Notes under the pieces: model-generated | What the model was told of the DNA's origin: nothing | The model's input: the letters and a program-made list of their open reading frames with translations, nothing else | The model's database searches: none | Source of the DNA: Chlorobiaceae bacterium | Lineage (GTDB): Bacteria > Bacteroidota > Chlorobiia > Chlorobiales > Chlorobiaceae | Direction: 5' to 3' | Assembly (NCBI GenBank): GCA_013334225.1 | Contig: JAAXXY010000001.1 | Span: 1 to 64,000 of the forward strand | Length of the DNA: 64,000 bases | Translations under genes and position numbers: made by a program | Part shown: positions 44,825 to 62,803 of the stretch, in pieces | Position numbering within the stretch: the first letter of the stretch is position 1 | Layout of the letters: the number at the start of each line of letters is the position of its first letter

Positions 44825-47800
44825 TCACACCTCGATGCCTTCGAGGCGGTCTTCCAGGTCGGAATAGATTTCCTGAAGTTTTTCGATCATGTCCGGGTCA
44901 GCATTCCACATGCCTCGACCGCTTGCTTCGAGCATTCTGCCTACAATGTTCTTGAAGGCTTTCGGGTTCACCTTCATGAGTCGCTCGCGCATTTTCGGAT
45001 CAAATGCGTAAGTCTCGGCAGCTTCCTTGTATACCCAGTCGTCGACGCCTTTTGTGACAGCGTCCCAGCCAAGCATGTAAGTGAAACGGTTGCTGATCTC
45101 TGTTGCACCGCTGTGCCCCTGTTCCAGCATGGTCTCGAACCATTTCGGATTGAGCAGCTTGCTGCGGAACTCGACCTTGAGTGCTTTGTCGGCATCGTCA
45201 ATCTTGACATCGGCTGTAAATGTTTCCACGTAGTTCAGCTTCACACTGTCGCCTTTAGGGTTGCGACGGCGGGCTGAGAGCTGGAGAGCTCCCGATGAGG
45301 AGAAGTAACGGTCGATGTCTGTTATCCCGAACTCGGCAGAATCGACCTGTTGCACGACACGGTCCACGGTTCCGAGAAGGCCTTTCAGAATGTCGGTCTG
45401 CTGGTCGCCGTAACGGTTGCCGCCGTAGGCGAATCCGGTACGTTTGATGAACATGTTGTCGAGATCTTCCTCGGACTCCCATGCTGAATCCTCGACAAGC
45501 TCTTCCACCTGTGAGCCGTATGCGCCTGGGGCCTGCGTGAAGAGGCGTGAAGTGGCGCTTTCGAAATCCTTGCCCTCTTTAATGGCGGCATCGACATGCT
45601 TGCGGATGCTGTTCATCTCGTATGGCTCGATCGCTTTTGCTGCATCCTTGACCAGTTTGTCGAGGTGATCGACAAGTACGCCGAAGGTGTCGCGGAAGAT
45701 GGAGCTGATCTGGATCAGTACGTCGATCCTCGGACGTCCGAGCTTTTCGAGAGGGATGAGCCGGTAATGGCTGATTTTGCCCTGGGCATCGTAAGCTGGT
45801 TCCGCTCCGACGAGGCTGATGATGACCGCAACGGCTTCACCTTTGCTTTTGATGGTATCGAGGCCCCAGAGCACCTGGGCGATGGTTTCCGGGTACTGGC
45901 CGTTGTTTTCCTCGAGATGGCGCTGGATGATGGTGTTCGCTATCTGCCAGCCGCGCTTGAAAGCCAGTTCGGAAGGAATTCTCCACGGATCGATGGCATG
46001 GATGTTGCGGCCGGTCGGCAGGATGCCTGCGCCGTCTCGCACAAGGTCCCCACCGGCTCCTGACGGGATGTATTCTCCGCAGAGGGCACGAAGGAAGTTC
46101 TGCATCTCATGTCTGTTGTCCTGCAGGGCACGTTTCAGTGCCAGGCCATCCTGAAGTGCAGCGTTGATCGCGTCGACCATTTCCGTTGTGGGTTTCGTTC
46201 CACCCGCAATCTGGTTGAAGACGCTTGAGGGGTTGCTGTTACCGAAGATAGTGCCTTCGATGAAAACCCTGGTATGTTCGTCGATCTTCTCGCGAACTTT
46301 CATTGCCTGCGGTTCACCTTTGCGGGCGCGGGTTGCAAGTGCGGCGTAATCGCCGAATGATGTGCTTGCGCCGGTCGCCTGCATGATGATCGAGGGAAGG
46401 GACTTTTCGTTGCCGCGAACTTTCAGGTATTCGGTGATGGTGGTGACCTGCGTGTCGAGTTTCGGTGTTTCACCGAAGACGTGCAGAGAGTTGGAGATCA
46501 GTCGTCCCTCGAGTTCCATGAGGTAGGTGTAGAGGCGGCTGATGTAGTTCATGAAGGTCTCTCCCTCCACGCGTGGGCAGTCGTCTGTGAGGTTGAGCTG
46601 CTGCGCCTTGTTGATGATGACCTCCTCGGTTTCAATATCCACAATCTTCTCGAGCCCGCGCTCGCGGTAGTCGTTGAGCATCTCCTTGAACGCCGGAAGC
46701 TCCTTGTAGAGGCCTGCGCGGGCGAGCGGAGGGATGTTGTGCGATATCATGGTTGCGTAGCCGCGGCGCTTTGCGATGTTGGCCTCGCTCGGGTTGTTGA
46801 TCGGGTAGATATAGAAATGCGGGACTTCGCCGAGCAGCGCGTCCGACCAGCAGTCGCCTGTTACGCCGAGTTGAAGGCCCGGCATCCATTCGACCGTGCC
46901 GTGCATGCCGACATGCACCATGGCGCTGGCGTTGAAGACACGGCTGATCCAGCGGTAGAAGCCGATATACTGGTGGTGCGGCGTGTTCTCCTTGTCGAAA
47001 AGCAGGCGCATCGGGTCGCCCTGGATGCCGAGGCGGGGCTGGACGCCGATGAAGATGTTGCCGAGGGTGACGCCGCCGATAAAACAGTTGTCCGGCTTGA
47101 CAGGAGCGACCTCGCCAGGGAACCCTCCCCAGCGGGCTTCGATGCGTTCGCGCTCGCGCACGGAGGTTATCGAATTGTATGTTTCGCGGTTGATCGAGAA
47201 GCAGTCCGGTTCATGGGCCTGGATCTCGAAATCGGTCGCCTTGTCGAGCATGGCGAGCAGGGCTTCGGGCGATTCCGGAATCTCTCCGACGTTATAGCCT
47301 TCTGCACGCAGGGAGAGCAGTATATTGTAAATGCTCTTCGGGACGTCGAGCAGTGCAGCGCTGGCTTTCTTGCCCATACCCGGCGGATAGTCATAAACGA
47401 CGATGGCCAGTTTTTTATCCCTGTTCGGCATTTGTCGAAGGTCCGAAAACTTTTTCGCTATCCCCGAAAGCCTTTCGAGGCGGTCCGGAACGGTCTGCAG
47501 ACGACCGTCCTTGATTGCGCCGAGCACGACCGGGCAGACGGCGCCGTCCATTTCAGGAAGCGAGTAGGTCATGGCCGACTGCAGCGGTACGACGCCCTGT
47601 GACTTCCATGAGTTGAAATCCTGTATGAAAAGGGGTTGCGAAACCACGTATGGAGCGTTGATCTTGCCGAGGATCTCGTCGCGTGCCGCGGCTGAAGCTC
47701 CAGGCGTGGTCGCGCCGGCCGGACCGCCAACGAAACCGAACCCCATCATGTTCACAAGCATGTCGATGTTAGCATGCGTGAACCACTCACGCGCAGCGAC

Positions 47801-48628
47801 GTGACCTTCCACACCCATCACGAATACCGGCAGGGGGTTCAAGCCCTTTGCCTCGATGGCCCGGATGGTGTTGTCGATATACTCCTTTTCCTGAAGCAGG
47901 TGCTTGCGGAAAAAGAGCATGCCTATATTTCTTCTTTTAGAAGAGTTTTTATCGCGTTTATGCAGCCACTTTTCGTAGTGGTGCAGATCTTTCTGGTATT
48001 CCGGCGCATCGGGATGGTAAAATCCCATGGTCGGGACTTCCTGCACTTTCTCTGCTTTAATGCCCACCTCGAAATACTCGGCCATGATGTAGTTGAACAT
48101 CGAAGCGAGATTGTCTGCAGTGGGGTGCATCCAGTAGGTGTAAACCTGCATCCAGTTCTTGAAATCCTTCGCTTTTTTCGGGATCAGCGGCAGCATGGTG
48201 CGCATGATCTTCAAAAGCTTCATGTATCCGTAGAGCGCATCCTCGTCGCGCCCTTTCACCAGCATTTTGGCGACTTTCTTCACGATATCGGGCATTCCGC
48301 TTCCATCCCCGGCTACGACGTAGTTGCCTACTTTCGTCATCTGCATCACTTCCGGCATCGACTCGTAGGCAAAAATAACTTTCACCCGAGACTGGTCGAG
48401 CTGTTCCTTCATCCAGTCGGCCTGTCCCTTGAACTGGATCAGGGTGGTGAAGACACAGTCAGCATTGTGGATCGCATCGGCTGCTGCCGGGTTCTGATGC
48501 TCCAGGTCCTGATCGGTCCATTGAGTGAGTTCGGCATGAGCGGAGATTTTCTCGGTCACCTCGCGCCAGACCCGCTGGTTGCATTGCTCCATCCCGACAA
48601 TTGCGGCAATTCTGATTTTATCGTGCAT
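44825..48628 (-). CDS. bchH: Magnesium chelatase subunit H family (BchH/BchS/BchT)
   Basis: The H subunit binds protoporphyrin IX and, with BchI and BchD, inserts Mg2+ as the first committed step to bacteriochlorophyll. The N-terminal DUF3479-type domain (IRIAAIVGMEQCNQRVW, KVIFAYESMPEVMQMTKVG) is found in BchH/ChlH and distinguishes it from CobN. The CobN-Mg_chel body has KKLAIVVYDYPPGMGKKASAA, SAMVHVGMHGTVEWMPG and GDCWSDALLGEVPHFYIYPI. Green sulfur bacteria carry three paralogs (BchH, BchS, BchT); I cannot assign which. At 1267 residues it is full length. A TonB-dependent receptor gene lies upstream with its own terminator. Confidence 0.9.
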   Translation of the reverse strand: MHDKIRIAAIVGMEQCNQRVWREVTEKISAHAELTQWTDQDLEHQNPAAADAIHNADCVFTTLIQFKGQADWMKEQLDQSRVKVIFAYESMPEVMQMTKVGNYVVAGDGSGMPDIVKKVAKMLVKGRDEDALYGYMKLLKIMRTMLPLIPKKAKDFKNWMQVYTYWMHPTADNLASMFNYIMAEYFEVGIKAEKVQEVPTMGFYHPDAPEYQKDLHHYEKWLHKRDKNSSKRRNIGMLFFRKHLLQEKEYIDNTIRAIEAKGLNPLPVFVMGVEGHVAAREWFTHANIDMLVNMMGFGFVGGPAGATTPGASAAARDEILGKINAPYVVSQPLFIQDFNSWKSQGVVPLQSAMTYSLPEMDGAVCPVVLGAIKDGRLQTVPDRLERLSGIAKKFSDLRQMPNRDKKLAIVVYDYPPGMGKKASAALLDVPKSIYNILLSLRAEGYNVGEIPESPEALLAMLDKATDFEIQAHEPDCFSINRETYNSITSVRERERIEARWGGFPGEVAPVKPDNCFIGGVTLGNIFIGVQPRLGIQGDPMRLLFDKENTPHHQYIGFYRWISRVFNASAMVHVGMHGTVEWMPGLQLGVTGDCWSDALLGEVPHFYIYPINNPSEANIAKRRGYATMISHNIPPLARAGLYKELPAFKEMLNDYRERGLEKIVDIETEEVIINKAQQLNLTDDCPRVEGETFMNYISRLYTYLMELEGRLISNSLHVFGETPKLDTQVTTITEYLKVRGNEKSLPSIIMQATGASTSFGDYAALATRARKGEPQAMKVREKIDEHTRVFIEGTIFGNSNPSSVFNQIAGGTKPTTEMVDAINAALQDGLALKRALQDNRHEMQNFLRALCGEYIPSGAGGDLVRDGAGILPTGRNIHAIDPWRIPSELAFKRGWQIANTIIQRHLEENNGQYPETIAQVLWGLDTIKSKGEAVAVIISLVGAEPAYDAQGKISHYRLIPLEKLGRPRIDVLIQISSIFRDTFGVLVDHLDKLVKDAAKAIEPYEMNSIRKHVDAAIKEGKDFESATSRLFTQAPGAYGSQVEELVEDSAWESEEDLDNMFIKRTGFAYGGNRYGDQQTDILKGLLGTVDRVVQQVDSAEFGITDIDRYFSSSGALQLSARRRNPKGDSVKLNYVETFTADVKIDDADKALKVEFRSKLLNPKWFETMLEQGHSGATEISNRFTYMLGWDAVTKGVDDWVYKEAAETYAFDPKMRERLMKVNPKAFKNIVGRMLEASGRGMWNADPDMIEKLQEIYSDLEDRLEGIEV

Positions 48629-57275: not shown

Positions 57276-58523
57276 ATGCGTATTTTAACGTTCACAGGTA
57301 AGGGTGGAGTAGGAAAAACAAGCGTTTCTGCAGCTACAGCTGTCAGATTGTCTCAGATGGGATATCGTACGCTTGTTTTATCAACAGACCCTGCTCACAG
57401 TCTCTCGGATTCTTTTAACCTTCCTCTCGGTGCAGAACCCACCAAAATCAGGGAAAATCTTCAGGCTATCGAAGTCAATCCTTATGTCGATCTCAAACAG
57501 AACTGGCAGTCGGTACAGAAATACTATACCAGGATTTTCATGGCCCAGGGGGTATCTGGAATCATGGCAGATGAAATGACAATCCTGCCCGGTATGGAAG
57601 AGCTCTTTTCACTCCTGAGGATCAAACGTTACAAGGCTTCCGGATTTTATGACGTACTGGTTCTCGATACAGCCCCAACCGGTGAAACCCTGAGATTGCT
57701 TTCGCTTCCTGATACGCTTTCCTGGGGCATGAAAGCCGTGAAGAACGTTAATAAATATATCGTCAGGCCCCTCAGCAAGCCGTTGTCGAAGATGTCCGAC
57801 AAAATAGCGAATTTCATTCCACCTGCGGATGCTATTGATTCGGTTGATCAGGTTTTCGACGAACTTGAAGACATCCGTGAAATTCTCACAGACAATGCCA
57901 AATCCACAGTCCGTCTGGTTATGAACGCCGAGAAAATGTCGATCAAGGAAACCATGCGAGCGCTGACGTATCTTAACCTGTACGGATTCAAAGTTGATAT
58001 GGTACTTGTCAACCGCCTGCTTGATACAAAAGAAAACAGCGGATATCTGGAACACTGGAAAAGCATCCAGCAGAAATATCTTGGAGAGATAGAAGAGGGA
58101 TTTTCACCGTTGCCGGTCAAAAAGCTCAGGATGTACGAACAGGAAATTGTCGGTCTCAAATCACTCGATCAGTTCGCTCATGACATGTATGGTGAAAGCG
58201 ATCCGTCGGATATGATGTATGACGAACCGCCGATCAAGTTTGTACGCAATGGCGATGTCTATGAGGTGCAGATGAAGCTCATGTTTGCCAACCCGGTCGA
58301 TATCGATGTCTGGGTTACCGGGGATGAACTCTTCGTGCAGATAGGAAATCAGCGCAAGATCATTACCTTGCCGATAAGCCTGACCGGCCTTGAACCGGGC
58401 GATGCCGTTTTCAAGGATAAATGGCTGCACATTCCGTTCGATCTCGACAAGACCGAACAGAGCCGCCTGCAGAAGGTACAGAGGGAGTCACACGAATCAA
58501 GGGAACAGAAAGTCTGTCATTAG
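57276..58523 (+). CDS. ArsA/Get3-like ATPase with HSP20-like C-terminus (upstream copy)
   Basis: The SIMIBI P-loop is [20 protein letters not shown], with switch I VLSTDPAHSLSDSF and switch II VLDTAPTGETLRLL, all intact. The C-terminal about 90 residues (YEVQMKLMFANPVDIDVWV to LHIPF) form an ArsA_HSP20-like beta domain. It has only one Cys, in the last three residues, so it lacks the three metal-binding cysteines of ArsA arsenite pumps and the CxxC of Get3. No ars genes are nearby. csmC follows after 135 bases. A targeting or chaperone role for chlorosome proteins is inferred from this position. Confidence 0.88.
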   Translation: MRILTFTGKGGVGKTSVSAATAVRLSQMGYRTLVLSTDPAHSLSDSFNLPLGAEPTKIRENLQAIEVNPYVDLKQNWQSVQKYYTRIFMAQGVSGIMADEMTILPGMEELFSLLRIKRYKASGFYDVLVLDTAPTGETLRLLSLPDTLSWGMKAVKNVNKYIVRPLSKPLSKMSDKIANFIPPADAIDSVDQVFDELEDIREILTDNAKSTVRLVMNAEKMSIKETMRALTYLNLYGFKVDMVLVNRLLDTKENSGYLEHWKSIQQKYLGEIEEGFSPLPVKKLRMYEQEIVGLKSLDQFAHDMYGESDPSDMMYDEPPIKFVRNGDVYEVQMKLMFANPVDIDVWVTGDELFVQIGNQRKIITLPISLTGLEPGDAVFKDKWLHIPFDLDKTEQSRLQKVQRESHESREQKVCH

Positions 58524-58581
58524 ACTGTTTTATTACTCTGAAGAAGAGTACTTGATTTGATTGTTTTTTATGTTTAACTTT

Positions 58582-58609
58582 TTGCAATTAATATTCTTGG
58601 CTTTACAAT
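58582..58609 (+). promoter_or_regulatory. Candidate promoter of csmC
   Basis: TTGCAA (58582-58587) and TACAAT (58604-58609) with a 16-base spacer lie 50 bases before the csmC start. This is a good eye-match to a sigma70 promoter and would allow csmC and csmA expression independent of the ATPase gene. Confidence 0.45.
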
Positions 58610-58658
58610 CAACAACAGGGGCTTCGTTCATGCAAGCCTCATTTCCAGGGAGAGTAAC

Positions 58659-59078
58659 ATGTCGGAATCGTACCAGAATCTGCGTAAGGATTTCAAGGAA
58701 CTTGAGTTGACAGACCGCCTTACGTTTCTTGCTGAAAGCGTTCTGTTGACCGGGCAAAGCGCTGTCGTCAGTGGTTTGAATCTTGCCGGCAGTGTTTTTG
58801 ATACCGTAACCGGAACTGTCGGCGCTCTTGTCGATGCAACCGGAGTCGGAAGGATTTTTGGAAGCAGCACCGGTGTTGTCGGCGAGACCATCGATCGGGT
58901 AGCCATTACCGTCAAGGATGCTTCGAGAACAGCTAACGAGCTCTATACCAATGCTGTCGAGACTGTGGAAAATGCTGCAGGTAACATGGCTACAGCTGTC
59001 GGTGATGCAGGACAGTCAGCATCAGAAGTGGTCAAGAATTTTGCCGGGTCTTTCCAGAAAGGTCCAATTAAAAAATAA
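58659..59078 (+). CDS. csmC: Chlorosome envelope protein C
   Basis: The 139-residue product begins [28 protein letters not shown] and has a glycine/alanine-rich middle with [32 protein letters not shown]. These match CsmC of Chlorobium chlorosomes as I recall it: it sits in the lipid monolayer surrounding bacteriochlorophyll c aggregates. The tail is amphipathic, with [17 protein letters not shown]. csmA lies 143 bases downstream on the same strand, and in other green sulfur bacteria the two share a message. No signal peptide is seen, fitting cytoplasmic chlorosome assembly. Confidence 0.93.
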
Positions 59079-59221
59079 GTGAGCGTTCCTTTTTTTTAAA
59101 CAAACTGTTTTTCAAAGGGCAATCTTTTTCTTGTGTTTTTTTATTTATTGCTGTAAATTAACGTAAGGTAACTATTCTGAATTATTAAAACTTTCCAATA
59201 ATTAAATCCCAAGGAGGAATT

Positions 59222-59464
59222 ATGAGTGGTGGTGGCGTTTTTACCGATATCCTGGCAGCAGCCGGCCGCATCTTTGAGGTAATGGTTGAAGGTCACTGGG
59301 AAACCGTCGGTATGCTGTTTGATTCTTTAGGCAAAGGTACCATGAGAATCAACCGCAATGCTTATGGCAGCATGGGCGGTGGCGGAAGCCTTCGTGGCGG
59401 ATCACCAGAAGTAACAGGATATGCTGTTCCTTCTAAAGAGGTTGCTTCAAAATTTGCAAAATAA
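59222..59464 (+). CDS. csmA: Chlorosome baseplate protein CsmA (precursor)
   Basis: The sequence [20 protein letters not shown] followed by [19 protein letters not shown] is unmistakably CsmA. CsmA binds bacteriochlorophyll a, with the single His25 as ligand, and forms the baseplate that passes energy from the chlorosome to the FMO protein. The product of 80 residues is made as a precursor; in other species about 20 C-terminal residues are removed, leaving 59. GGAGG lies seven bases before the ATG, as expected for a highly expressed gene. A strong terminator follows. Confidence 0.98.
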
Positions 59465-59486
59465 GCAAATCAGGGTTCCATTTATT

Positions 59487-59526
59487 CAAGGCAGTGAAAA
59501 GCTTGTGTTTCACTGCCTTTTTTTTT
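59487..59526 (+). terminator. Strong terminator after csmA
   Basis: AAGGCAGTGAAA and TTTCACTGCCTT pair perfectly around AGCTTGTG, with a run of nine T after the stem. It should end the csmA message and limit read-through to the next gene. Confidence 0.95.
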
Positions 59527-59734
59527 ACCGTAAAGCCAGCCTTCAGTAACATCCTTCTTTTCCGGTTATCTTGAACACAGTACTCGGCGATTGTATTTCT
59601 CATGCTTTCTGATCGGTGTCTGATCTTTAGAAAGAGTGCTCGCAGGCTGATTAGCAATTTCTGTTTCTTCTAAAATTTTAATAGATTTCATTTCAATTTG
59701 CCGGTAAGAAGTGTTAAGTGAAAAGCAATAGCTA

Positions 59735-61567
59735 ATGGCTAATTTATCTTTGTACATATCAGGACAGACTGAAGAGAATGATGTAGCTGAATTTTTCCAG
59801 AAAAACCTCATGAGCGCCGGTGAAAATCCGATCGCTTTTTTTGACGGGGTTTTTTATGAGTCACATCAGGAACGTGTTGGCAATATTGCTTTTCAGGACT
59901 ATCTGATCTATTCCGACAAGGCGGTTTATCTTTGGGCAAGAGGGACGACAAAGGATTATCTCGACCGATTTGAACTCGGTTCGGTCTCCGTTAACAGCCG
60001 GAATAAGGATTACGATTTCGCAACCGTAAATCTCAAGGTTCGCCGTGAAGGCAAGGAACCTGTCTATGTGATATTCGATATGGTCGAGTTACGGGAAGCC
60101 GATCTGATTGTCAGACTGCATACCGTTATAGAATCGGTCATTGAACAATATATGGGCCTGAATTACCGGGCAACACTTCCCGACAACGTCGCAGACATTG
60201 TTCTTCAGGAAGCGAGGAGCGTCTGTATTCCCCAGGCCATTTCACTTCGTCTCGATGCTCCCGGTGCTACTCAGCAGCAGACCAATATCGGATATGGTCA
60301 GGACCTGCTTGAGCAGTACAAGGCCTCCATCGGTTACGGCGGTACCGAGAGGCAGCCGCAACAGGCTCCCCAGAGGTCACAACCTCAGCAGCAGGCAGGG
60401 TACAATCCTGTTCCTGCATCGCCGGGCGGCACACCGTATCCGGAAGGCTTTTCTCCAACCGAAGTGTTCAAAAAAATTGAAGGCATGCTTCCCGGTGCTG
60501 ATTCCGGTTCTCTGAAAAAAGTTGCCGAATCGATCAAGGACATGCTTGGTGAGGTTCCCATGAAGCTTCGGGACCAGTTCGTCAGTGATATGCAGCATGT
60601 CCCGGGTATGCTTTCCGCCCTCAATGAGCTTCTGACAAACCTTTCGGATAATCCCCAGGCAGAACGTTTTGTGATGAATATCGTCAAAACGGCAGTTCGG
60701 AATGACGGGATGATCGGGTCGGTAAGCAAGCTTATCAAGCTCTCTTCCAATTTTGGCTCATCAGGCAAGAAAAAAACTGCTCAGCGTCCAGCGCAGAGAC
60801 CGGCTTCAGGAGCTCCTGCCTCTCAGAAGGAGAAGGATAATTCCTTCGATGATTTTGACAGTCCTGTAAGGAAAAAGAAAATTCAGATCAAAAACGATAG
60901 TGAGTCCTCTTTCAGTCGGGATTTTTTCAGCGACGATATGACAATGGATTTGCCGGAAAGCGGATCGGATTCACCTGAAAAGAGAAGACCTGTAATTGAG
61001 GATATGGACGATGCAGATACACCTAAACGAAAGAAGATATCGGTCAAGGCATCTGAAGATCACATGTCTTCCCTTGTGAAGGACATGATGGACATGGATG
61101 ATACCGATTCCGGAATTTCCGCCAGGAAGCTGGTAGAGGATGAAAAACCGGCCGTAATGTCAATGGAAAACGGACAGGCGCCGGTAACCACAAAAAAAAT
61201 CAGAATTGTTCCTGAAGCCATTCCGTCAGAACTTCCTGAAATAGAGTTTTCGGAAGAGGAACTCCTGCAGGTAATGGCTCCGGATATTGAAGTTCCCGAA
61301 CTTGAGGCACCAGGACATGAGGATCCTGAGGCGGATTTACCTGAAGTTGAAGCTCCCGCCATGGAAGAACCGGAACCACCGGTAGTAGAAGAACAAAAAG
61401 CTGAAATACTAAAGACAGAAGTCAGACCATCTGAAAGCAGTGCTGCGGAAAAACCGGATGTGCAAATTCCAACTGCACCGGTTATGCAGACAAAAAAATC
61501 GGATTTTACCGGTAACAGTGCTCAAAGGAAGAAGTTCAACGCACCGGGAAAACACGGAAGGCGGTGA
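59735..61567 (+). CDS. Large unrecognised protein with PH-like N-terminus, in chlorosome cluster
   Basis: I do not recognise the family with confidence. Residues 1-150 look like a bacterial PH-type beta domain (FQDYLIYSDKAVYLWARG, FATVNLKVRREGKEPVYVIFDM). A Gln/Pro-rich linker follows (PQQAPQRSQPQQQ), then a helical region of about 100 residues (FKKIEGMLPGADSGSLKKVAES). From about residue 345 it is low complexity, with three basic KKI motifs (RKKKIQIK, KRKKISVK, TKKIRIV) spaced by acidic stretches, then a Pro/Glu-rich part and a basic tail. No signal peptide. It lies between csmA and the second ArsA-like gene; its role is unknown. Confidence 0.85.
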   Translation: MANLSLYISGQTEENDVAEFFQKNLMSAGENPIAFFDGVFYESHQERVGNIAFQDYLIYSDKAVYLWARGTTKDYLDRFELGSVSVNSRNKDYDFATVNLKVRREGKEPVYVIFDMVELREADLIVRLHTVIESVIEQYMGLNYRATLPDNVADIVLQEARSVCIPQAISLRLDAPGATQQQTNIGYGQDLLEQYKASIGYGGTERQPQQAPQRSQPQQQAGYNPVPASPGGTPYPEGFSPTEVFKKIEGMLPGADSGSLKKVAESIKDMLGEVPMKLRDQFVSDMQHVPGMLSALNELLTNLSDNPQAERFVMNIVKTAVRNDGMIGSVSKLIKLSSNFGSSGKKKTAQRPAQRPASGAPASQKEKDNSFDDFDSPVRKKKIQIKNDSESSFSRDFFSDDMTMDLPESGSDSPEKRRPVIEDMDDADTPKRKKISVKASEDHMSSLVKDMMDMDDTDSGISARKLVEDEKPAVMSMENGQAPVTTKKIRIVPEAIPSELPEIEFSEEELLQVMAPDIEVPELEAPGHEDPEADLPEVEAPAMEEPEPPVVEEQKAEILKTEVRPSESSAAEKPDVQIPTAPVMQTKKSDFTGNSAQRKKFNAPGKHGRR

Positions 61568-61648
61568 TGGCTGTATGCAGTTTCCGGCAAAGAATTCAAT
61601 CGGACGTTCAGTCAAGATCAAATCTACTTAATAGCTTTTATCACAAAC

Positions 61649-62803
61649 ATGAGAATTATTCTTTACCTGGGTAAAGGGGGTGTCGGTAAGACCACCGTTT
61701 CAGCCTCGACCGCAACATCAATTGCACGGAGAGGCCAGAGGGTGCTTATCATGAGCACGGATGTGGCTCACAGTCTTGCCGATGCATTCAGCGTTGAGCT
61801 TTCATCTACCCCTCTCGAGGTAGAAAAAAACCTTTTTGCCATGGAGGTCAATGTCCTTGCTGAAATCAGGGAAAACTGGAATGAGCTGTATTCCTATTTC
61901 TCTTCGATTCTCATGCATGACGGTGCCAATGAAATCGTGGCCGAGGAGCTTGCTATCATGCCGGGTATGGAAGAGATGATCAGTCTCCGCTATATCTGGA
62001 AGGCTGCGAAATCAGGTGATTATGATGTTGTCATTGTTGATGCAGCACCGACCGGAGAAACCATGCGCCTGCTCGGCATGCCTGAATCGTATGGCTGGTA
62101 TTCTGACAAGATCGGTGGCTGGCATTCGAAAGCCATTGGTTTTGCAGCACCGCTCCTGACCAAGTTCATGCCGAAAAAGAATATTTTCAAGCTCATGCCT
62201 GAAGTGAACGAGCATATGAAAGAGCTTCACGCCATGCTGCAGGACAAGAGCATAACGACATTCAGGGTTGTCCTGAACCCCGAGAACATGGTTATCAAGG
62301 AAGCTCTCAGGGTACAGACCTACCTGAACCTTTTCGGGTACAAGCTTGATGCTGCCATAGTCAACAAGATTCTGCCGCCGAGTTCAGCTGACAGTTACCT
62401 GCAGAGCCTTATCGATACCCAGGCAAAATACCTCAGGATCATCGAGAACTGTTTTTATCCGGTTCCTATTTTCCGCGCACAGCTTTCTACCGAAGAAATT
62501 ATCAATACGGACAAGCTGGACAACCTCAGCAAGCAGATATTCGGCGATAAAAATCCTGCCGAGGTGCTTTACATCAACGACAAAACACAGGTGCTCGCCA
62601 AAGTCGACGGCAAATATGTTTTGAGCCTTTATCTGCCGAATGTTGAGGTAAAGAAACTGAACGTCAACATTAAAGGCGACGAACTGCTGGTCGATATCAA
62701 CAATTTCCGCAAGAGCATTATTCTTCCCAATGTGCTTATTGGCCGCAAAACAGAGGGCGCGGATTTTTCAGAGGGCAATCTCAGCATCACATTCTCAAGC
62801 TGA
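61649..62803 (+). CDS. ArsA/Get3-like ATPase with HSP20-like C-terminus (downstream copy)
   Basis: P-loop [18 protein letters not shown], switch [15 protein letters not shown] (Val where Pro is usual) and switch [17 protein letters not shown] are intact enough for ATP hydrolysis. The last 85 residues ([19 protein letters not shown] to LSITFSS) form an HSP20-like domain. It shares architecture and motifs with the upstream copy but is clearly divergent. Only one Cys (IIENCFYP) is present, so neither the ArsA metal site nor the Get3 zinc CxxC can form. It starts 81 bases after the large unrecognised gene and ends before a terminator, closing the chlorosome cluster. Confidence 0.88.

Follow-up and report, generated by a model that had tools for sequence, protein, structure and literature searches.

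The stretch analysed here comprises positions 1 to 64,000 of contig JAAXXY010000001.1 from a Chlorobiaceae bacterium (assembly GCA_013334225.1; hereafter the window, 64,000 nucleotides (nt)). A block at positions 57,276 to 62,803 encodes, on the forward strand and in this order, an ArsA/Get3-like ATPase (ArsA1), the chlorosome proteins CsmC and CsmA, a large open reading frame (ORF610) and a second ArsA/Get3-like ATPase (ArsA2). Here we report that csmA follows a type A ATPase and precedes ORF610 homologues in Chloroflexota as in Chlorobiales, and that Chlorobiales retain the order of the five genes although the flanks vary; these observations are new here, as are the co-occurrence of the ORF610 family and of types A and B with csmA and the second type A copy beside bchU, both described below. 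The two ATPases and ORF610 are probably part of the chlorosome-building machinery, and we consider, with a probability of roughly 0.55, that the block encodes chlorosome parts (CsmC and CsmA) together with ATP-driven assembly factors, whose cargo and mechanism we infer below. The five genes are as follows.

57276–58523, + strand: ArsA1, type A Get3d-like ATPase, 415 residues (PF02374, 2e-116; PF17886, 1.3e-19; Get3/Get3d fold match; type A clade, 98/96)
58659–59078, + strand: csmC, chlorosome envelope protein C (PF11098, 8e-61)
59222–59464, + strand: csmA, bacteriochlorophyll (BChl) a-binding chlorosome baseplate protein (PF02043, 5e-33)
59735–61567, + strand: ORF610, chlorosome-linked protein with a predicted PH domain, 610 residues (no Pfam or NCBIfam match; homologous to two csmA-adjacent Chloroflexota proteins)
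61649–62803, + strand: ArsA2, A2-subfamily Get3d-like ATPase, 384 residues (PF02374, 4e-84; PF17886, 1.8e-19; A2 clade, 100/100)

The coordinates, strand and Pfam families all agree with the initial annotation, which had described two same-strand ATPases flanking csmC, csmA and an unrecognised reading frame. Its term "twin" is misleading, because ArsA1 and ArsA2 are only 36% identical and fall in different, well-supported subfamilies, and because the genome holds seven full-length ArsA-type genes.

A csmA neighbourhood shared by two phyla

A PF02043 gene is present in 96 of 98 Chlorobiales genomes, and 95 of the 98 contain an ArsA2 match at E ≤ 1e-80, some of these matches being at the paralogue level, so that the figure is not a count of orthologues. 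All five genes occur in the same order and on the same strand in 16 fully read Chlorobiales loci from three family groups, while the flanking genes pyrK, ssb, holA, folK and folB (named by eye) are conserved in Chlorobiaceae, only in part in the Chloroherpeton family and not in the third group. In 66 of the 71 Chlorobiales genomes in which both were placed, ArsA2 follows ArsA1 on the same strand at a spacing of 2.6–3.6 kb, and the arrangement is therefore not due to chance. Of the five exceptions, four have the appearance of contig breaks, and in the fifth (G057) the ATPases are on different contigs.

We scanned contigs with a CsmA-derived DNA pattern, which excluded G-initial codons after GHW, and obtained 37 loci (29 from Chloroflexota, seven from Chlorobiales and one chance match); Chloracidobacterium gave no locus, a blank that carries no weight given the excluded codons. 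Directly upstream of csmA, 28 of the 29 Chloroflexota loci encode an ATPase that is 45–51% identical to ArsA1; the 29th locus ends there. Downstream of csmA, where the sequence allows, two ORF610 homologues are followed by a type B ATPase about 34% identical to ArsA1, and two further genomes (G330 and G339) have the order ATPase, csmA, ORF610-like, ORF610-like. With a profile of the Chlorobi ORF610 proteins, the Chloroflexota proteins mostly matched at 1e-10 to 1e-24; weaker matches came from a small number of them, including partial sequences. A comparison of gene order, as proposed in the initial annotation, shows that the genes stay linked to csmA in both phyla, beyond what the single stretch could reveal. 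In Chloroflexales, the csmA cluster often ends with a third ATPase-like gene (L115:1595-2710 and equivalents), which has lost the P-loop and switch motifs and may encode a pseudo-ATPase.

Co-occurrence with csmA and the ATPase subfamilies

Co-occurrence was analysed in 150 Chloroflexia genomes and 297 Bacteroidota genomes (75 Chlorobiales and 222 others). In Chloroflexia, csmA is present in 33 of the 150 genomes, and the ORF610 family in exactly the same 33 (Fisher, 6e-34). Type A ATPases, at an identity of at least 61%, occur in these 33 genomes and in G463, and type B ATPases, at 56% or more, in 32 of the csmA genomes and in G463. In G463, two contigs end with the type A and the type B gene, at just the point where csmA would be expected, and in G435, the csmA genome without type B, the csmA contig ends inside an ORF610 homologue. 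The best type A matches in chlorosome-less Chloroflexia reach at most 45% identity. Among Bacteroidota, the ORF610 family is found in 71 of the 75 Chlorobiales and in none of the 222 others; the Chlorobiales without it are G013 (no PF02043 match), G001 (CsmE-like only), G057 and G021. Ten of the 222 other Bacteroidota have one ArsA/Get3 ATPase each, three of which were placed in the tree described below and fall outside types A, B and A2. The ORF610 family and, in Chloroflexia, types A and B are present with csmA and absent without it, apart from the contig breaks in Chloroflexia and these Chlorobiales exceptions; for types A and B the term chlorosome-only refers to the Chloroflexia sample, and for the ORF610 family also to the Bacteroidota sample. 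The ArsA2 subfamily does not follow this pattern.

A subfamily tree of 51 proteins, without homologues from Cyanobacteria or further bacterial groups, resolved three clades. The type A clade (98/96) contains ArsA1, its extra copy, another Chlorobi paralogue and the csmA-upstream ATPases of Chloroflexales and of G330 and G339. The type B clade (100/100) unites a Chlorobi paralogue, located far from csmA in the genome studied here, with the csmA-downstream ATPase of Chloroflexales; the neighbours of this type B gene (a FabI-like reductase; others judged by eye) revealed no link to photosynthesis. The A2 clade (100/100) comprises ArsA2, a Chloroflexales copy encoded away from the csmA cluster and one copy each from chlorosome-less Chloroflexia, the placement of which led us to reject a chlorosome-only ArsA2 subfamily. 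The initial annotation would have been contradicted by the same ATPase pair in relatives lacking chlorosomes, and this check did not contradict it: type A, type B and ORF610-family genes are all missing from the sampled chlorosome-less Chloroflexia, whereas lone copies of the ArsA2 subfamily occur there. A dedicated chlorosome role is well supported for ArsA1 and less well supported for ArsA2.

These distributions bear on the view that the ATPases perform general Get3d housekeeping, targeting or protecting many membrane or photosynthetic proteins, and adjoin csmA merely through co-regulation of photosynthesis. The seven ArsA-type genes of the genome and the ArsA2 relatives in chlorosome-less Chloroflexia would fit such a role, but in Chloroflexia the distribution of both ATPase types and of the ORF610 family follows that of csmA almost without exception, and the surroundings of csmA are conserved in two phyla; we regard the housekeeping view as rather unlikely.

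One of the further ArsA-type genes encodes a second type A ATPase with 89% identity to ArsA1 and is located outside the window on the same contig, about 25.5 kb beyond ArsA2 (C41 88342-89547; L223:8309-9547), between two B12-radical SAM genes and adjoining bchU (BChl c C-20 methyltransferase), which passes its equivalog cut-off. This location would suit a role in pigment handling, in which bacteriochlorophyll or a precursor would be taken up in the hydrophobic chamber of the ATPase and handed on to CsmA or to the growing BChl c aggregate, as would the binding of BChl a by CsmA itself and the unidentified densities in the NosGet3d chamber (PMC10248533). The conserved neighbour in the short Chloroflexota loci is, however, csmA (pigment genes were not searched for there), and we consider a pigment carrier improbable. 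Two more type A-clade copies in this genome, at C95:41059 and C92:13151, share 97% identity; given the 6.9% contamination reported for the assembly, one of the two may not belong to it. A second PF02043 gene, CsmE-like and apart from csmA, is present in the same genome (C65:10066-10305) and at L229:11838-12092, and in G015 such a CsmE-like gene lies near an extra type A ATPase.

Domains of the ATPases and of ORF610

The P-loops (GKGGVGKT) and switch motifs are intact in both ATPases, and each ATPase domain is followed by a C-terminal domain resembling HSP20/alpha-crystallin (PF17886), confirming the intact P-loops and HSP20-like tails noted in the initial annotation.

58254–58439, + strand: ArsA1 HSP20/alpha-crystallin-like domain, residues 327–388 (PF17886 stretch; beta strands in the predicted model)
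62606–62794, + strand: ArsA2 HSP20/alpha-crystallin-like domain, residues 320–382 (PF17886 stretch)

This architecture (PF02374 and PF17886 in both proteins, and the ArsA1 model), the absence of the CxxC zinc motif, the P-loop and the switch I and II motifs conserved in green bacteria are features by which Get3d is recognised. Both proteins score well above the TIGR00345 cut-off (281 and 238 versus 135 bits), and the top Foldseek matches of the ArsA1 model are Get3 and Get3d structures; the helical insert (TRC40 insert, or client chamber region) is modelled at lower confidence. At 149 and 144 bits, the proteins miss the 325-bit cut-off of the NCBIfam NosAFP equivalog (cyanobacterial Get3d), and their sequences place them in the same broad family as NosAFP, outside the cyanobacterial equivalog.

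As previously noted, each ATPase has a single cysteine (C414 in ArsA1 and C268 in ArsA2) and neither has CxxC. Neither can therefore form the canonical Get3/TRC40 zinc site, and we rejected canonical Get3 as their identity. The idea that they energise an arsenite or metal-anion pump draws on nothing beyond the Pfam name "Anion-transporting ATPase". They consist of a single ATPase domain, unlike the two fused halves of an ArsA pump, one cysteine each makes the Cys triad of ArsA impossible, they score 119 and 91 bits against the 650 required by the ArsA pump model TIGR04291, other ArsA homologues also lack the metal-site cysteines (Castillo and Saier 2010, PMC2963123), and no ars gene, arsB and acr3 included, was recognised by eye among the listed reading frames near the block, where no scan for ars families was made. 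We rejected arsenic resistance on cysteine content and domain architecture, and regard a pump energiser as hardly credible.

ORF610 matches no Pfam (at 0.01) or NCBIfam family, and five of its homologues match no relevant Pfam family at 0.1, the Pfam PH model included. Its predicted domain and its tail motifs are as follows.

59735–60250, + strand: ORF610 N-terminal PH-like domain, residues 1–172 (AlphaFold2 predicted local distance difference test score of about 90 or more over most of it; Foldseek)
60875–60892, + strand: basic I-x-I/V motif KKIQIK in the ORF610 tail (motif scan with shuffles)
61031–61048, + strand: basic I-x-I/V motif KKISVK in the ORF610 tail (motif scan with shuffles)
61193–61210, + strand: basic I-x-I/V motif KKIRIV in the ORF610 tail (motif scan with shuffles)

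AlphaFold2 confidently predicts residues 1–172 as a seven-stranded sheet closed by a C-terminal helix, the arrangement that characterises the PH superfamily, and the top Foldseek matches of this model are PH and PH-like domains. The middle of the protein is helical at low confidence and the tail is disordered in the AlphaFold2 model, and there is no evident membrane span (highest 19-residue hydropathy, 1.02). One to four basic I-x-I/V motifs occur in the tail of all 18 distinct Chlorobi proteins examined, with none in the first 170 residues, and their number exceeds that in shuffled sequences (p ≤ 0.04) in 12 of the 13 Chlorobi proteins tested. In small heat-shock proteins, a groove of the alpha-crystallin domain accommodates I-x-I/V motifs and, by analogy, the ORF610 tail motifs could engage the alpha-crystallin-like domains of the neighbouring ATPases.

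A predicted PH-domain protein with a long disordered tail might instead be the adaptor of a ParA/MinD-like system that places chlorosomes, or patches of baseplate, at intervals along the membrane, and the ATPases belong to the same SIMIBI P-loop class and give weak MinD/ParA matches. Their TIGR00345 scores and Foldseek matches nevertheless identify a Get3/ArsA fold, and they carry an alpha-crystallin-like tail, which is not known from any ParA or MinD; we judge such a positioning system very unlikely.

A proposed role in chlorosome assembly, and related ATPase systems

Transcription of the block is probably divided after csmA.

59488–59519, + strand: intrinsic terminator-like hairpin and T tract, directly 3′ of csmA (12-bp stem, T run)

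Equivalent hairpins (−16 to −23 kcal/mol), 44–57 nt downstream of csmA, occur in five other Chlorobiaceae loci and in one of two Chloroherpeton-family loci tested, and were not found in the loci tested from other Chlorobiales families or from Chloroflexota. A GCAGTG-containing stem is conserved in the post-csmA terminator of all six Chlorobiaceae loci tested, and a single five-gene operon in Chlorobiaceae was rejected on the basis of the conserved terminator. The terminator may point to lower production of ORF610 and ArsA2, or to a separate promoter for them, as might be expected of assembly factors; a promoter scan gave no more matches than shuffled sequences did. The window also contains bchH, encoding the magnesium chelatase H subunit (44825–48628; TIGR02025, 1,566 bits), on the opposite strand and some 9 kb before the start of the block.

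Several observations weigh against a dedicated set of assembly factors. The block is not one simple operon, because the terminator separates csmA from ORF610 and ArsA2 in Chlorobiaceae. Get3d-like proteins also occur in chlorosome-less bacteria, and the closest relatives of ArsA2 include proteins of chlorosome-less Chloroflexia. The metagenome-assembled genome ES-bin-17 (G027; 97% complete, from a fourth family) keeps ArsA1, csmC, csmA and ORF610 without ArsA2, with about 1 kb of contig remaining after ORF610 (L098, contig C364), and G021 (96% complete) has a PF02043 gene and no orthologue of ArsA1, ArsA2 or ORF610, through either an assembly gap or real loss. The tail I-x-I/V motif is present in only 4 of the 14 Chloroflexota ORF610 homologues tested. 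Finally, the co-occurrence counts are not phylogenetically independent; their independent part is that separate lineages share the gene order and that non-chlorosome lineages lack the set. The earlier proposal that the ATPases are chaperones or targeting factors for the chlorosome is partly supported: it gains from the csmA linkage kept in two phyla, and loses, for ArsA2, from its lone relatives in chlorosome-less Chloroflexia and from the G027 block.

For the assembly-factor reading, we infer the following cycle. ArsA1, and less certainly ArsA2, would run an ATP-dependent cycle like that of Get3, taking up hydrophobic or amphipathic parts of the chlorosome (CsmA, CsmC or other envelope proteins, perhaps also pigment) and releasing them at the growing lipid monolayer. 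ORF610 would act as a soluble, peripheral partner or docking factor, using its PH domain for a lipid or protein surface, while its disordered, basic I-x-I/V tail may engage the alpha-crystallin-like domains of the ATPases. More tentatively, the two phyla may share an ancient, dedicated chlorosome-assembly apparatus, in which type A and B ATPases load clients and an ORF610-family PH tether docks their alpha-crystallin domains on the growing monolayer through its basic I-x-I/V tail, and which moved with csmA as chlorosomes spread from phylum to phylum; we hold this as a possibility on the doubtful side.

The yeast GET pathway likewise depends on a Get3-fold ATPase, and yeast Get2 captures Get3 through a disordered basic tail, which the ORF610 tail loosely resembles; the present system differs in that ArsA1 and ArsA2 lack CxxC, and in that a PH domain is predicted for ORF610, which shows no evident membrane span. 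The ArsA homologues of gas-vesicle clusters (cluster 4, PMC2963123) offer another parallel, as an ArsA-like ATPase encoded with organelle genes, often with a separate hsp20, but they are two-domain proteins of about 637 residues, serve another organelle and accompany no csm genes. In the same classification (Castillo and Saier 2010), types A, A2 and B fit ArsA clusters 8 and 11 by length and membership, and cluster 11 lists Chloroherpeton, C. tepidum, Chloroflexus and Chloracidobacterium, all of which bear chlorosomes; that study examined operon context, and its text does not mention chlorosomes. A literature search on Get3 and the chlorosome, or on the C. tepidum and Chloroflexus locus tags, found nothing relevant.

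The route of chlorosome assembly is debated between budding and aggregation models, and CsmA is described as the only chlorosome protein whose sequence is similar in all three chlorosome phyla (PMC9316378). The csmA gene is reported to be essential, and csmC dispensable. In two of these phyla, csmA is accompanied by one more protein family and by two subfamilies of ATPases, which provides named genes for knock-out and pull-down experiments. The closest known system is Get3d (Arabidopsis AtGet3d and Nostoc NosGet3d, All4481), which has ATPase activity and a hydrophobic chamber and binds a tail-anchored protein; its description covers green sulfur bacteria, and the text does not mention chlorosomes (PMC10248533). 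ArsA1 and ArsA2 share with it the Get3/ArsA fold, the C-terminal alpha-crystallin domain and the lack of CxxC, and the ArsA1 model matches 8egk and 8elf over 400–419 columns, although at only about 22–24% identity in these alignments. The new element relative to the published Get3d is the genomic linkage to csmA, and, if the proposed role is true, bacterial Get3d would gain a concrete pathway.
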